A stretch of DNA of 64,000 bases from the NCBI RefSeq assembly GCF_000244915.1, contig NZ_CM001442.1, positions 4,650,001 through 4,714,000 on the forward strand. Direction: 5' to 3'. Each line of letters begins with the position of its first letter. The first letter of the stretch is position 1. Positions 16,668-58,702 of this stretch are shown one piece after another. A program made the position numbers and the translations under genes. The stretch comes from Bradyrhizobium sp. WSM471 (GTDB lineage Bacteria; Pseudomonadota; Alphaproteobacteria; Rhizobiales; Xanthobacteraceae). The notes beneath the pieces were generated by a model that saw only the letters and a list, made by a program, of their open reading frames with translations, had not been told where the DNA came from and made no database searches.

Positions 16668-16713
16668 TTGCGGAACATGTATCGAACATATAGTGTCCGT
16701 TCATGATTTGTTT
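16668..16713 (+). promoter_or_regulatory. lexA promoter with LexA (SOS) box
   Basis: A perfect alphaproteobacterial LexA site, GAAC-N7-GAAC (the complement of GTTC-N7-GTTC), lies at 16673-16687. It sits between a possible -35 TTGCGG (16668-16673) and a TATAGT -10-like element (16689-16694). A degenerate second site GTTC-N7-GTTT follows at 16699-16713. The placement fits repression of lexA by its own product. Confidence 0.85.
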
Positions 16714-16787
16714 CGAGCATGTAGCGGCTTATGGCCGAATTCTGCGTCTCGGAATCGGACGACATCAACCGGGGGACTTTGGTCGAG

Positions 16788-17489
16788 ATGTTAACGCGCA
16801 AACAATACGAGCTTCTGCGGTTCATCAGTGAACGTCTGAAGGAAAGCGGCGTGCCGCCCTCCTTCGACGAGATGAAGGATGCGCTCGACCTGCGCTCGAA
16901 GTCGGGCATCCATCGCCTGATCACGGCGCTCGAGGAACGTGGCTTCATCCGACGCCTGCCCAACCGCGCCCGTGCGATTGAAGTCATCAAGCTGCCGGAG
17001 CTCCAGGCGGCCGCCGGCAGCCGCCGCGGCTTCACCCCGAGCGTCATCGAGGGCAATCTCGGCAAGGTGCGTGCGGGCTCCAGCCTGCCCGCGGACGAGG
17101 GCGAACGCCCCGTCGCGGTGCCGGTGATGGGCCGCATCGCGGCCGGCACGCCGATCGAGGCATTGCAGACCCGCAGCCATACCATCAGCGTACCGCCTGA
17201 CATGCTCGGCTCGGGTGAGCATTACGCGCTCGAAGTACGCGGTGATTCCATGGTCGAGGCCGGCATCCTCGACGGCGACATGGCGCTGATCCAGCGCAAC
17301 GAGAGCGCTGATACCGGCGACATCGTGGTGGCGCTGATCGACGACGAGGAAGCGACGCTGAAGCGCTTCCGCCGTCGCGGCGCCTCGATCGCGCTCGAGC
17401 CCGCCAACGCAGCCTATGAGGTCCGCATCCTGCCGCCCAACCGGGTGAAGATTCAGGGCAAGCTGATCGGGCTTTACCGGAAGTACTGA
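16788..17489 (+). CDS. lexA: LexA repressor (SOS regulator)
   Basis: Represses DNA-damage genes and self-cleaves when RecA filaments form. The start giving [13 protein letters not shown] is chosen over an upstream ATG (16731) because LexA proteins begin there; 233 residues. The winged HTH occupies residues 1-65 ([18 protein letters not shown], recognition helix [16 protein letters not shown]). The Ala-Gly cleavage site is in GRIAAGTP, the nucleophilic serine in RGDSMVEAG, and the lysine in ATLKRF, so autoproteolysis should work. It has its own SOS box. The last codons are part of a threefold direct repeat. Confidence 0.97.
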
Positions 17490-53601: not shown

Positions 53602-56600
53602 CTAGAGCTGCTGCACGTCTACCACGCCGGCGACCGCCTTGATGGCGCCGGCGATCTGCGGCGAGACCTTGAAGCGGCCGGGCAGCTTCATCTCGACCTC
53701 GGTCTCGAGGTCGAGCATCATGACCAGCGAGACCTCGCCGTCGCCGTTGGAGCGGGGCGCGATGCCCGGACTGCCGACCTTCGGCGCGGCGCCGTTCGAA
53801 GCGGCCATGTCGGGACCGGCGAGACGCTTGGCGATCGATTCCAGCGGCTTGGTATCGCGCACGAAGATGCGCAGGCCCTTCTGCGTCTTGGCCGCGGCCT
53901 CGTCCAGCGGTTCGGCGTGGAGCACGCGCGCGCGGACGTCCTCGCCCTGGAGCTCGGCGCCGAGCTGGAGCAGCACCGCGGCGCCCGGCTCCAGCACGTC
54001 GCGATATTGCGCGAGGCCTTCGGAGAACAGCACCGCCTCGAAGTGACCCGTGGGATCAGAGAGCCCCATGATGCCCATCTTGTTGCCGGTCTTGGTCCGC
54101 CGCTCCATGCGCGACACCACGGTGGCGGCGACCTTGCCGGCGGTGGCGCCGGTTTTCACCGCGCGCGAGAACTCGGCCCAGGACTGCACGCGCAGCCGCT
54201 TCAGCACGGTGGCGTAATCGTCGAGCGGATGTCCCGACAGGAAGAAGCCGATCGCGTCATATTCACGGCGCAGCCGCTCCGCCGGCAGCCAGGGCTCGAT
54301 CTGCGGCAACATGATGGTCGGCGCGTCGGCCGAGCTGCCGAACATGTCGTTCTGGCCGATGGTCGCAGCTTCGTTCGCCCGCTGGCATGCGGCGAGAATC
54401 GAGTCGGCGCCGGCGAAGACCCGTGCCCTGTTCGGCTCCAGCGTGTCGAACGCGCCCGCGGCGGCGAGGCTTTCGATGATGCGCTTGTTGATCGCGCGCG
54501 GCGACACCCGCGCGGCAAAGTCGGCGAGCGAGGTGAACAAGCCGTTCTTGGTCCGCTCCGCGATGATCTGCTCGACGGCCGCGATGCCGACGCCCTTCAG
54601 CGCCGCGAGCGCGTAGTAGATGGTCTTGTCGCCGACCTCGAAAGTCGCGCCGGAACGGTTGACGTTGGGCGGCTCGACCTTGATGCCGAGGCGCTGCGCC
54701 TCGGCGCGAAATTCGGACAGCTTGTCGGTATTGTTGAGGTCGAGCGTCATCGACGCCGCGATGAACTCCACCGGGTAATGCGCCTTCATGTAGGCGGTGT
54801 GGTAGGACACCAAGGCATAGGCCGCCGCGTGGCTCTTGTTGAAGCCGTAGTCGGCGAATTTCGCCAGCAGCTCGAAGATCGTATCGGCCTGCCCCTTCGG
54901 GACGCCGTTCTTCACGGCGCCGGCGACGAAGATCTCGCGCTGCTTCTCCATCTCGGCGCGGATCTTCTTGCCCATGGCGCGGCGCAGCAGGTCGGCGTCG
55001 CCGAGCGAATAGCCCGACATCACCTGCGCGATCTGCATCACCTGTTCCTGGTAGATGATGACGCCGAAGGTCTCCTTGAGAATCGGCTCCAGTACGGGGT
55101 GGAGATATTCCGGCTCCTCGTCGCCGTGCTTGCGCGCGCAATAGGTCGGGATGTTCGCCATCGGGCCCGGTCGATAGAGCGCGACCAGCGCAATGATGTC
55201 CTCGAAACGGTCGGGGCGCATGTCGACCAGCGCGCGCCGCATGCCCTGGCTTTCAACCTGGAACACGCCGACCACCTCGCCGCGCGCCAGCATCTGGTAG
55301 CTTTCGGCATCGTCGATCGGCAGCGTGGCGAGATCGACATGGATGTCGCGCGGCTTGAGCAGTTTGCACGCGACGTCGAGCACGGTCAGCGTCTTCAGGC
55401 CGAGGAAGTCGAACTTCACGAGGCCAGCCGGCTCGACCCATTTCATGTTGAACTGGGTCACCGGCATGTCGGATTTGGGGTCGCGATACATCGGCACGAG
55501 TTCGCTCAGCGGCCGATCGCCGATCACGATGCCGGCCGCGTGCGTCGAGGCGTGACGGGTCAGGCCTTCGAGGCGCTGGGCGATGTCGAAGGCGCGCGCC
55601 ACCACCGGGTCCTCGTCGCGGAACGCCTGGAGCTTCGGCTCGCTCTCGATCGCGGCCGCAAGCGTCACCGGCGCGGCCGGATTCTGCGGCACGAGTTTTG
55701 TGAGCTTGTCGACCTGGCCATAGGGCATCTGCAGCACGCGGCCGACGTCGCGGAGCACGCCGCGGGCCTGTAGCGTACCGAACGTGATGATCTGCGCGAC
55801 CTGATCGCGACCGTAGCGCTCCTGGACGTACTTGATCACCTCGCCGCGGCGGTCCTGGCAGAAGTCGATGTCGAAATCCGGCATCGAGACGCGTTCCGGA
55901 TTGAGGAAGCGCTCGAACAGCAGGCCGAACTTGATCGGGTCGAGGTCGGTGATGGTGAGCGCCCACGCAACCAGCGAGCCTGCGCCGGAGCCGCGGCCCG
56001 GCCCGACCGGAATGCCCTGGCCCTTCGCCCATTTGATGAAGTCGGAGACGATCAGAAAGTAGCCCGCGTATTTCATGCGCATGATGACGTCGAGCTCGAA
56101 CGCAAGCCGCGCGCTGTAATCTTCTTCAGTCGTGCCTTGCGACAGTCCGTGCACGCGTAGGCGGTTGGCGAGCCCCTCCTCCGCCTGCCGCTTCAATTCG
56201 GCCGCCTCGACCGCGGCGGCGTCGGAGCTTGCGGCAGCGCCGACCGTGAAGAACGGCAGGATCGGCTTGCGCGTCATCGGCCGGAACGAGCAGCGCTCGG
56301 CGATCTCGACCGTCGAGACCAGCGCCTCCGGAATGTCGGCGAACAGCACTGCCATCTCGGCGCGGGTCTTGAAGCGGTGATCGGGCGTGAGCTGCTCGCG
56401 CTCGGTCTCCGCGATCAGCCGCCCGCCGGCGATGCAGAGCAGCGCATCATGGGCTTCGTAATCGTCGGTCGCGGCGAAATACGGCTCGTTGGTCGCAACC
56501 AGCGGCAGGCCCTTGGTGTAGGCGATGTCGATCAGGTGGCTTTCGACCCGCCGCTCCTTGTCGGTGTTGTGGCGTTGCAATTCGATGTAGAGGCGGTCCC

Positions 56601-57105
56601 CGAACAGGTTGGCGAGACGCTCGCAGCGCGCCGCCGCGAGCTCGGTATAGCCGCCGGCAAGCGCCAGCGAGATCGGCCCGTCCGGACCGCCCGTCAGCGC
56701 GATCAGGCCTTCGGTCTCGCCTTCGAGCCAGTCGAACTTGATGTGGGGAGCATGAGTGTCGGGCGTCTCCAGGAACGCGCGCGAGTTCAGCCGCATCAGG
56801 CTGCGGTAGCCACGCTCCTGCGCGGCCAGCAGCACCACGCGCGAGGGCAGCAGCACGTTGCGCGCATTGGGATCCTGGTCGCCGAACTCGATCGCGATCT
56901 CGCAGCCCACGATCGGCTGGATGCCGGAGCCCGCCATCTTGTCGGAGAACTCCAGCGCGCCGAACATGTTGTCGGTGTCGGTCAGCGCCAGCGCCGGCTG
57001 ATGGTCTTTCTTGGCTAGCTCGGCGAGCTTGGCGATCTTGATCGAGCCCTTGAGCAGCGAATAGGCCGAGTGAACGTGAAGGTGGACAAATCCGGCGCTC
57101 GGCAT
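53602..57105 (-). CDS. dnaE: DNA polymerase III subunit alpha
   Basis: Replicative polymerase (DnaE1 type, 1167 residues). The start MPSAGFVHLHVHSAYSLLKG puts the PHP domain (HLHVHSAYS) at the very N-terminus as in homologues; a frame to 57168 adds an unlikely leader. Polymerase catalytic aspartates are in VSMPDFDIDFCQD; RGSGAGSLVAWAL and GYGFNKSHAAAYALVSY are also typical. Tandem HhH motifs are followed by a C-terminal OB domain (AATVVSRMERRTKTG) and tail. The SOS-controlled small ORF lies 170 bases upstream on the same strand; whether transcription continues into dnaE is unknown. Confidence 0.97.
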   Translation of the reverse strand: MPSAGFVHLHVHSAYSLLKGSIKIAKLAELAKKDHQPALALTDTDNMFGALEFSDKMAGSGIQPIVGCEIAIEFGDQDPNARNVLLPSRVVLLAAQERGYRSLMRLNSRAFLETPDTHAPHIKFDWLEGETEGLIALTGGPDGPISLALAGGYTELAAARCERLANLFGDRLYIELQRHNTDKERRVESHLIDIAYTKGLPLVATNEPYFAATDDYEAHDALLCIAGGRLIAETEREQLTPDHRFKTRAEMAVLFADIPEALVSTVEIAERCSFRPMTRKPILPFFTVGAAASSDAAAVEAAELKRQAEEGLANRLRVHGLSQGTTEEDYSARLAFELDVIMRMKYAGYFLIVSDFIKWAKGQGIPVGPGRGSGAGSLVAWALTITDLDPIKFGLLFERFLNPERVSMPDFDIDFCQDRRGEVIKYVQERYGRDQVAQIITFGTLQARGVLRDVGRVLQMPYGQVDKLTKLVPQNPAAPVTLAAAIESEPKLQAFRDEDPVVARAFDIAQRLEGLTRHASTHAAGIVIGDRPLSELVPMYRDPKSDMPVTQFNMKWVEPAGLVKFDFLGLKTLTVLDVACKLLKPRDIHVDLATLPIDDAESYQMLARGEVVGVFQVESQGMRRALVDMRPDRFEDIIALVALYRPGPMANIPTYCARKHGDEEPEYLHPVLEPILKETFGVIIYQEQVMQIAQVMSGYSLGDADLLRRAMGKKIRAEMEKQREIFVAGAVKNGVPKGQADTIFELLAKFADYGFNKSHAAAYALVSYHTAYMKAHYPVEFIAASMTLDLNNTDKLSEFRAEAQRLGIKVEPPNVNRSGATFEVGDKTIYYALAALKGVGIAAVEQIIAERTKNGLFTSLADFAARVSPRAINKRIIESLAAAGAFDTLEPNRARVFAGADSILAACQRANEAATIGQNDMFGSSADAPTIMLPQIEPWLPAERLRREYDAIGFFLSGHPLDDYATVLKRLRVQSWAEFSRAVKTGATAGKVAATVVSRMERRTKTGNKMGIMGLSDPTGHFEAVLFSEGLAQYRDVLEPGAAVLLQLGAELQGEDVRARVLHAEPLDEAAAKTQKGLRIFVRDTKPLESIAKRLAGPDMAASNGAAPKVGSPGIAPRSNGDGEVSLVMMLDLETEVEMKLPGRFKVSPQIAGAIKAVAGVVDVQQL

Positions 57106-57275
57106 GGTCGCGTGACGGCCTCTTGCAGATGAGATGGAGCGGACACCGGCACCGGAGGCATCCTGCACTCGCCTGGCCGACTCGCCTCACGATGGTGGGG
57201 CGTCATGGTGCCAGAGTCCACGCCGGAACGGCCGATCGGCCGCGTCGTCCTGCTTTTCCCCAACCTGTCCCGCCC

Positions 57276-57374
57276 CTAGAGCTGCGGGAGCACCTGGGCC
57301 CAGATCGCGATCATCCCGACAAACAGCGCGATCGACGCCAACGCGGCGGCTTCTTCGACGAAAATCCTGAACAT
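57276..57374 (-). CDS. SidA-like 32-residue SOS-controlled inner-membrane peptide
   Basis: A 32-codon frame from the ATG at 57374 to TAG at 57276. A GGAG ribosome site lies 6 bases upstream, inside an alternative in-frame ATG at 57386 that lacks one of its own. The peptide starts MFRIFVEEAAALASI, continues as a hydrophobic helix (ALFVGMIAIWAQVL) and ends PQL: a short amphipathic head and one transmembrane segment. Two perfect LexA boxes sit in its promoter. Caulobacter SidA is known as a 29-residue SOS-induced inner-membrane division inhibitor acting on FtsW/FtsN; size, topology and control match. Orthology is inferred, not shown. Confidence 0.75.
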   Translation of the reverse strand: MFRIFVEEAAALASIALFVGMIAIWAQVLPQL

Positions 57375-57391
57375 GGCTTGCTCCATGGCGA

Positions 57392-57435
57392 GAACGTATG
57401 AAGAACATTGTTCTCATTTCGTTCTCAGGAGTCAA
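57392..57435 (-). promoter_or_regulatory. Dual LexA-box promoter of the small membrane peptide
   Basis: On the minus strand, -35 TTGACT (57435-57430), a 17-base spacer and AACAAT (57412-57407) form a promoter. LexA box 1, GAAC-N7-GAAC, covers 57424-57410 between and over the elements. Box 2, GTTC-N7-GTTC, covers 57406-57392 near the expected transcription start. Both have exact N7 spacing. Confidence 0.85.
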
Positions 57436-57481
57436 GCCGTCTCGGCCATCTCGCAGCGGAATGGTTAACCCGCTGAACTTG

Positions 57482-57516
57482 AACAACAAAAAGCCCCGGC
57501 CGATGGCCGGGGCTTT
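57482..57516 (-). terminator. Rho-independent terminator of the outer-membrane barrel gene
   Basis: On the minus strand, 12-bp arms AAAGCCCCGGCC / GGCCGGGGCTTT around a 3-base loop are followed by a T-rich run (TTTTTGTTGTT with the arm end), about 40 bases beyond the stop of the barrel gene. Confidence 0.92.
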
Positions 57517-57558
57517 CGCCGACCGCTCGAAGTCGAGCGATCGATAGCAGTCTTTTAC

Positions 57559-58278
57559 TCAGTAGCGGCCGAGGCTCGGGCCACCGAACTTGTAGTTCAG
57601 GCGGACGAGGCCCATGTCGACGTCCTGACGGATGCGATCGGTCGAAGGCACCAGCGCGAAGGTGACGTTCTTGTCCTGCAGGAACAAGTGGTTGTACTCG
57701 ACGCCAACCGACCAGTTCGGGGCGAAACCGTACTCGAGGCCGGCACCGATCGTGCCACCCCAGCGGGTCTGATCGTTCGAGGACAGCAGTGCGCCGCCCG
57801 TGGTCGAGACTTCATACTTGCCGCCGACGACAGCCGCACCGCCCTTGGCGTAAATGAGGACGTTGTTCCAGGCGTAGCCGATCTGACCGGTGATCAGACC
57901 GAACGAGTCGATCTTGGAACGGTTGCGGGTCGCGAACAGCGCGCTGACGTTGTCGCCCGAGAAGTCAGCCCAGTTGCCCTGACCTTCGATACCGAACACC
58001 CACTGGCCCGACTGCATGCGATAGCCGATCTGGCCACCGACCGTGCCGCCGGTCGCATCGTGCGAACCCTCGCGGCCACCGCCGACGAGATCCCAGGTCG
58101 AATGTGCGGAACCGCCGCCGCCGTTGATACCGATGTAGAAGCCGCTCCAGTCGTAGATCGCGGCGACCATCGCCGGCGCCTTGGTGTAAGGCCGCGCAGC
58201 GAGGTCAGCAGCCACCGCCGGTGCAGCCGCGCCGAGCGCGACAAGGCTCACAGCAGCAAGCAACAGATTCTTGTTCAT
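57559..58278 (-). CDS. Outer membrane beta-barrel protein (Omp25/porin-like)
   Basis: The 239 residues begin with a signal peptide cleaved after AVAA (about residue 23). The mature part has the usual opening DWSGFYIGINGGGGSA, then alternating strands (GGQIGYRMQSGQWVFGIEGQG, IGYAWNNVLIYAKGGAAV, YGFAPNWSVGVEYNHLFL) as in the Omp25/Omp31-like family of rhizobia. The last strand is VRLNYKFGG, and the protein ends GRY rather than in the usual terminal F. Likely a structural or minor porin. Strong terminator downstream. Confidence 0.92.
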   Translation of the reverse strand: MNKNLLLAAVSLVALGAAAPAVAADLAARPYTKAPAMVAAIYDWSGFYIGINGGGGSAHSTWDLVGGGREGSHDATGGTVGGQIGYRMQSGQWVFGIEGQGNWADFSGDNVSALFATRNRSKIDSFGLITGQIGYAWNNVLIYAKGGAAVVGGKYEVSTTGGALLSSNDQTRWGGTIGAGLEYGFAPNWSVGVEYNHLFLQDKNVTFALVPSTDRIRQDVDMGLVRLNYKFGGPSLGRY

Positions 58279-58510: not shown

Positions 58511-58702
58511 GTGATTGGACAACGAATGCGGAGACGAATTGCTCTCCCCATTGTCGCCACATTTTCGCTCGCCCTCGCCACATTTACGCTCACGCTCGGC
58601 GCAAGCGCGCCGGCGCGCGCGTTCGGGACCTATCATCCTTTCTGCGTTACCGGGGATGAATGGCCGGGGCTGAGCAATTCACCGCGCTATTTGCTGCGTT
58701 GA
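58511..58702 (+). pseudogene. Truncated DUF3551-like exported protein
   Basis: A 63-codon frame (GTG 58511, or ATG 58526) encodes a signal peptide RIALPIVATFSLALATFTLT ending near ARAFG, then TYHPFCVTGDEWPGLSNS. Bradyrhizobial DUF3551 proteins continue after a WPGLSNC-like turn into a cysteine-rich SYxQCxATASG segment. Here the frame instead runs into PRYLLR and stops. No other frame restores the family pattern in the following 200 bases, so a deletion or recombination has removed the end. The flanks (58279-58510 and 58703-58918) hold nothing else I recognise. Confidence 0.5.

Follow-up and report, generated by a model that had tools for sequence, protein, structure and literature searches.

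A 32-residue predicted membrane peptide encoded ahead of dnaE in Bradyrhizobium sp. WSM471, very probably an orthologue of the SOS division inhibitor SidA

The window analysed here, i.e. the whole 64,000-nucleotide stretch of Bradyrhizobium sp. WSM471 DNA, contains a 32-codon frame upstream of dnaE, the gene of the replicative DNA polymerase. Since its position, its LexA-type regulation and its profile similarity to a Caulobacter peptide all point the same way, the 32-residue product is very probably an orthologue of SidA. As for function, the explanation that we consider the best, and in which we have good confidence, is that the frame is a Bradyrhizobium-type version of Caulobacter sidA and would encode an SOS division inhibitor acting via FtsW/FtsN. 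The features on which the argument is built are the following (positions are those of the window).

57276..57374, minus strand: candidate SidA-like membrane peptide gene, 32 codons plus stop, product MFRIFVEEAAALASIALFVGMIAIWAQVLPQL
57381..57384, minus strand: Shine-Dalgarno core GGAG, 6 nt ahead of the ATG
57392..57406, plus strand: LexA box 2, GAACGTATGAAGAAC, read on the minus strand as GTTCTTCATACGTTC, perfect; recurs in relatives
57410..57424, minus strand: LexA box 1, GAACGAAATGAGAAC, perfect GAACN7GAAC; recurs in relatives
57407..57435, minus strand: sigma-70-type promoter match TTGACT-17-AACAAT, from a consensus scan
57489..57517, minus strand: intrinsic-terminator-like hairpin, behind the upstream gene and ahead of the peptide promoter (1 found; shuffles give a mean of 0.6)
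53602..57105, minus strand: dnaE, next gene downstream, for the replicative DNA polymerase III alpha (TIGR00594 at 1213 bits; the match ends at 57090)
16731..17489, plus strand: lexA, presumed repressor (TIGR00498, 184.9 bits)
16673..16687, plus strand: perfect LexA box ahead of lexA, GAACATGTATCGAAC, internal positive control for the motif

A conserved short frame behind a LexA-type promoter

The frame runs on the minus strand from the ATG at 57374 to a stop that ends at 57276. Its product carries charges in the head (R3, E7 and E8) and none across residues 9-32, has a single hydrophobic stretch in hydropathy analysis, and matched no family in Pfam and NCBIfam scans. An alternative in-frame ATG at 57386, four codons further 5′, would extend the peptide to 36 residues; an ATG occurs at the equivalent spot in 22 of 58 loci only, and a GGAG, GAGG or AGGA is found at most 20 nt from the 32-codon start in all 58. 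On the same strand downstream comes dnaE, separated by 170 bases if it is taken to start at ATG 57105, which is our own choice (the listed frame opens at GTG 57168); the nearest named matches of its product are DnaE proteins of Rhodopseudomonas, Tardiphaga and Afipia (75-84%), in keeping with the "Bradyrhizobium-like" label of the preliminary description. The preliminary description of this DNA had claimed, without naming a strand, a 32-codon frame, a GGAG six bases 5′ of its start, one hydrophobic helix and a location next to dnaE: the frame, the GGAG (at 57384-57381) and the dnaE adjacency proved right, and the helix is borne out in the form of one predicted hydrophobic stretch.

Within the genus, 145 of 146 genomes gave a match to the peptide without an internal stop, as did 137 out of 137 when genomes of good quality are considered. 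At the family level, 191 of 248 genomes were matched at E≤1, spanning 37 of 47 genera (no match at this threshold in the other 57), and at the order level 54 of 347 at E≤0.1, with no match at this threshold in 293. Pairwise pN/pS is 0.091 among 33 distinct sequences from the top-scoring genus matches, 0.129 among the 17 distinct sequences of 20 low-scoring genus matches, and 0.166 when both sets are pooled; read in the two alternative frames, the same 33 sequences give 1.94 and 18.6, i.e. both exceed 1.5 as compared to 0.09-0.17 for the peptide frame. Third codon positions are the most variable (0.243 versus 0.072 and 0.018), and when 17 diverse members are aligned, residues A10, F18, W25 and A26 never change. 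Judged by these substitution patterns, the 32-codon frame is a real gene under purifying selection; the preliminary description had proposed conservation of the frame in close relatives, with synonymous changes favoured, as a check, and its outcome was positive on both counts.

The strongest regulatory evidence, as far as motifs can tell, is provided by two putative LexA boxes that were absent from the preliminary description. They face each other, with starts 18 bp apart, and lie on the only sigma-70-type promoter match present in the 57050-57600 interval (1 versus a shuffle mean of 0.0, sd 0.2): box 1 extends over part of the spacer into the -10 element, of which it takes in the first three bases, and box 2 begins immediately after the -10 element. 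The motif, GAACN7GAAC, is the reverse complement of the published Caulobacter LexA consensus, GTTCN7GTTC (PMC12700426). Among the 72 box-bearing loci of relatives and of the window itself, 58 have a TTGAC or TTGAA at most 16 nt upstream of the first box. The window also contains lexA, the gene of the presumed repressor, about 40 kb away from that of the peptide. Elsewhere in the same genome, near 3.182 Mb, a perfect box (L336:237-251) precedes by 65 nt an operon (317-2594) that reads as imuA-imuB-dnaE2, imuA and imuB being named as the frames adjoining a dnaE2-like match rather than by family search.

There are 5 perfect boxes in the 64-kb window versus 1.71 expected, and 5 or more are found in 3 of 100 shuffles. 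At the scale of the genome, perfect boxes are not enriched (171 versus 223 for a reversed control pattern), so that lone boxes carry little weight. Two predicted boxes within one promoter, recurring among species, mean much more, and the argument is one of position and conservation, not of box counts.

A few observations concern the DNA further upstream. The upstream neighbour of the peptide gene (57559-58278, minus strand) encodes 239 residues with a signal-peptide-like start and is followed by the hairpin at 57517-57489; we take it to resemble outer-membrane beta-barrels of the Omp25/31 kind. Five sub-threshold Rfam matches, all over this terminator region and four of them on the minus strand, were taken as chance, none reaching the gathering score in 57050-57600. 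At 58511-58702 on the plus strand, a 63-residue secreted-looking frame ends early and looks truncated; in two relatives (L015 and L038) its counterpart extends about 50 residues past the common part.

The region upstream of dnaE in relatives and in other Alphaproteobacteria

The neighbourhood was read in 75 loci, which include that of the window (L002) and are best search matches, not a random draw; 20 of the lowest-scoring genus matches were added to offset this sampling. A co-oriented dnaE lies downstream in 73 of the 75 loci, and the distance from the peptide ATG to the start of the dnaE match is 118-1197 nt (more than 500 nt in four loci). At least one perfect box is present within 150 bp upstream in 72 of the 75 loci and at least two in 65; among the 20 low-scoring genus loci, every one has two that are perfect. 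Both the LexA boxes and the dnaE neighbourhood, whose conservation the preliminary description had suggested looking for in relatives, are thus kept. Three of the 75 loci (L041, L051 and L070) possess the peptide with no perfect box in the 150 bp upstream.

A comparable arrangement exists in Caulobacter, where a 29-codon frame with LexA-type boxes ahead of it immediately precedes dnaE (L213, L214 and L216). The 29-amino-acid peptide is matched in 60 of 61 sampled genomes of the genus of Caulobacter sp. BK020 (one partial, E 0.011). In 38 Caulobacter loci, one per genome, boxes with at most one mismatch are always present within 90 bp upstream (perfect in 19), and the dnaE start motif is 54-80 nt past the last codon of the peptide in 37; the aligned first position holds no start codon in two loci and GTG in one. 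The SidA of Caulobacter crescentus was reportedly described by Modell et al. in 2011. We presume that the CC and CCNA numberings of the C. crescentus genes differ by about 77 in this region, in which case sidA adjoins dnaE, and on the strength of the locus numbers and this offset the Caulobacter frame is taken as SidA. Together, length, LexA-type boxes and locus numbers leave little doubt about this identity, short of proof. The numbers in question are CC1926 for dnaE (PMC1839093, Table 7) and CCNA_02004 for sidA (PMC11034885); SidA itself is a LexA-controlled, FtsW-binding inner-membrane protein of 29 residues (PMC4211646).

This association with dnaE could be read in another way: the frame would be a leader, or the boxes an SOS promoter, for dnaE, the peptide being incidental and the boxes serving to raise the polymerase after damage. 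The same-strand dnaE in nearly all loci of both groups, including its close spacing in Caulobacter, fits such a role, and co-transcription with the peptide is plausible. We find this quite improbable, because it is the amino acids that are conserved (the pN/pS of 0.09-0.17 and the four residues invariant in 17 sequences) and because the distance between peptide and dnaE varies.

The position upstream of dnaE, hereafter the slot, was used to look for SidA-type peptides across the class. Named genomes were reached via a CtrA search; dnaE was located in all 32 that were chosen, and the upstream region was read in the 30 with loci. The slot test, whose criteria were set after the first loci had been inspected, demanded, in the 760 bp around and upstream of the dnaE match start, a hydrophobic ATG frame of 26-45 codons lying 20-125 nt behind LexA boxes (a single perfect one or a near-perfect pair). 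Of the 30 genomes, 24 passed it; on the opposite strand none of the 30 did, nor did any of 600 dinucleotide shuffles. On both strands of the 64-kb window, it was passed by the present locus only (here too with criteria set post hoc). The six genomes failing the test were Methylobacterium bullatum, two Hyphomicrobium, Oryzicola mucosus, Brevundimonas bacteroides and Brevundimonas sp. SSC2. Other forms of the peptide occupy the slot in Microvirga, Alsobacter, Cucumibacter, Devosia, Hoeflea, Aurantimonas, Phenylobacterium, Brevundimonas, Asticcacaulis and Robiginitomaculum, some of the distant ones retaining little beyond one helix. In Brevundimonas sp. SSC2 (L211), a SidA-like frame with a normal start is present about 315 bases upstream of dnaE and runs into an unrelated stretch, for a total of 60 residues, as if it were shifted.

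With a threshold of E≤0.1, a class-wide profile search of whole genomes matched 29 out of 385. Of these, two belong to the genus of the window, and 21 of the other 27 matches lie in open frames of more than 80 codons. Such stray matches arise because a profile of 32 positions has little power at the scale of a genome, and reading the region upstream of dnaE was therefore preferred. When this was done for genomes lacking a similarity match, 5 of 30 regions passed the slot test; the 30 regions, read from 52 dnaE-matched genomes, comprise 17 from the same family, 10 from the same order and 3 from the same class, the last three being too few for mapping the distribution outside the order. Three regions fail the slot test and yet have a perfect box: two of them (L272 and L282) contain hydrophobic frames with non-ATG starts, and the third (L273) a short non-hydrophobic frame only. 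In L277, neither a perfect box nor a hydrophobic frame is present in the 270 bases between the contig start and the dnaE match. Likewise, L256-L270, from the same family, have neither a perfect box nor a hydrophobic frame within 700 bp upstream of dnaE, and the gene is therefore dispensable in this clade. Going by these upstream regions, some divergent members are missed by similarity search, and in some lineages gene and boxes alike appear to be lacking or lost. The natural absence in L256-L270 could be exploited to ask what else changes in the division genes.

Kinship with SidA and competing readings

The two groups of peptides were compared directly with hhalign, using profiles made from 31 distinct peptides of the window family and 23 peptides of Caulobacter and Phenylobacterium. 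The alignment has an E value of 9.4e-5 (for this single comparison), with 43% identity over 28 columns and a probability of 58.7%. Its score was reached by none of 200 full column shuffles and by one of 200 segment-wise shuffles, the latter because the peptides are so short. The invariant W25 aligns with a V in Caulobacter, whose sole W sits elsewhere, and A26 is kept. Thus the comparison with Caulobacter SidA that the preliminary description had called for does uncover a similarity, which as evidence of homology is of moderate strength owing to the length of the peptides. The other attributes of SidA are found as well: the size (about 29 residues with one helix, compared to 32 residues with a predicted single helix here), the slot, with dnaE immediately downstream in the window as in the 73 and 37 loci counted above, and a promoter of LexA type, in the form of two perfect boxes predicted to lie on the promoter match. 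The preliminary description had gone as far as a functional counterpart of SidA, a proposal to which conservation, boxes, slot and similarity lend support within the limits of what sequence can tell; because the slot upstream of dnaE is common to Caulobacter, orthology is supported beyond mere functional correspondence.

These likenesses to C. crescentus SidA (a tiny single-helix peptide, LexA-type boxes, the slot and the 43% identity over 28 columns) presuppose that the Caulobacter 29-codon frame is SidA, and they go along with differences: 29 residues versus 32 here, where the peptide has a WAQVLPQL tail; same-direction boxes with up to one mismatch in the Caulobacter loci versus two perfect, opposed boxes 18 bp apart; and a distance to dnaE of about 25-35 bases in Caulobacter (L214 and L247, by eye) versus 170. 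YneA of Bacillus and SosA of Staphylococcus are larger than the 32-residue peptide and belong to Gram-positive hosts. Like SidA, YneA is SOS-induced and contacts FtsW (PMC13396833), and SosA is an SOS-induced division inhibitor too (PMC6851548). In Caulobacter, DNA damage also induces DidA, a further small membrane inhibitor of division, which differs by its length of 71 amino acids and by being SOS-independent and DriD-controlled, and which binds FtsN in two-hybrid assays (PMC4211646). SulA of gammaproteobacteria, again an SOS-induced division inhibitor, is an inhibitor of FtsZ (PMC4211646). The SulA family, PF03846, had no match in the genome under study; among 14 control genomes, only E. 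coli was matched.

The main rival explanation is a LexA-controlled membrane toxin of the TisB/DinQ type, which would depolarise the membrane or make pores in it and so slow growth. TisB, which acts on the membrane, and DinQ are single-helix, SOS-controlled peptides of E. coli, and the size class, the one helix and the LexA-type boxes of our peptide all fit. We hold this to be unlikely nonetheless, because the slot is shared with the 29-amino-acid peptide of Caulobacter, whereas the TisB and DinQ genes are not known to adjoin dnaE, and because residues 9-32 are uncharged, unlike TisB, which is amphipathic. In addition, TisB and DinQ are paired with antisense RNAs, whereas in 57050-57600 a consensus scan of the opposite strand turned up nothing promoter-like and no Rfam family reached its gathering score, both of which are weak tests. 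DinQ has been described as an SOS-controlled single-transmembrane toxic peptide acting on the membrane itself (PMC3567139).

The similarity to the Caulobacter peptide being moderate, and some distant occupants of the slot having kept hardly more than a helix, one might also think of a small membrane protein under LexA control but directed at a different target, such as an envelope or transporter subunit, which would have only the slot in common with SidA. This seems to us very improbable indeed, given that the two peptides coincide in slot, boxes and size as well as in having a single helix and similar profiles.

A possible SOS checkpoint and its reach

In Caulobacter, overproduction of SidA blocks division and its deletion in a lexA mutant relieves filamentation (PMC4211646, PMC12700426). 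Mutations in ftsW or ftsI suppress the effect of overproduction, and it has been argued that the contact of SidA with FtsW/FtsN keeps the septal synthase inactive (PMC4211646). From this system we infer that in Bradyrhizobium, too, LexA binds and governs induction, and that the peptide inserts into the membrane, binds FtsW/FtsN and arrests division, as follows. In undamaged cells, LexA would occupy the two boxes covering the promoter. Upon DNA damage, RecA filaments would form and LexA would cleave itself, freeing the promoter so that the 32-residue peptide is made. By analogy, the peptide would enter the inner membrane as a single helix, contact the late division proteins FtsW/FtsN and keep the septal wall synthase inactive. 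Once repair is done, LexA would return and division would be released. Read-through into dnaE might also raise the polymerase.

Beyond this genome, we lean towards the view that SidA is an ancient SOS checkpoint peptide of Alphaproteobacteria, which Rhizobiales, Caulobacterales and relatives have kept ahead of dnaE in a slot under LexA control, and which gene callers have missed owing to its small size. What surprises more is this apparent breadth. Among the literature matches listed, which mostly leave out subscription papers, none reports SidA outside Caulobacter, and an earlier mention is possible.

If our reading is correct, a single site may control both division arrest and dnaE, and the peptide is a candidate SOS division brake for a bradyrhizobial genome that yielded no SulA match. 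The synteny recipe, i.e. a LexA box, then a hydrophobic frame of 26-45 codons, then dnaE, may serve to find such genes where similarity searches fail. SidA-type control is suggested to be both widespread and old, and the contact with FtsW/FtsN may thus become readable from sequence variation.
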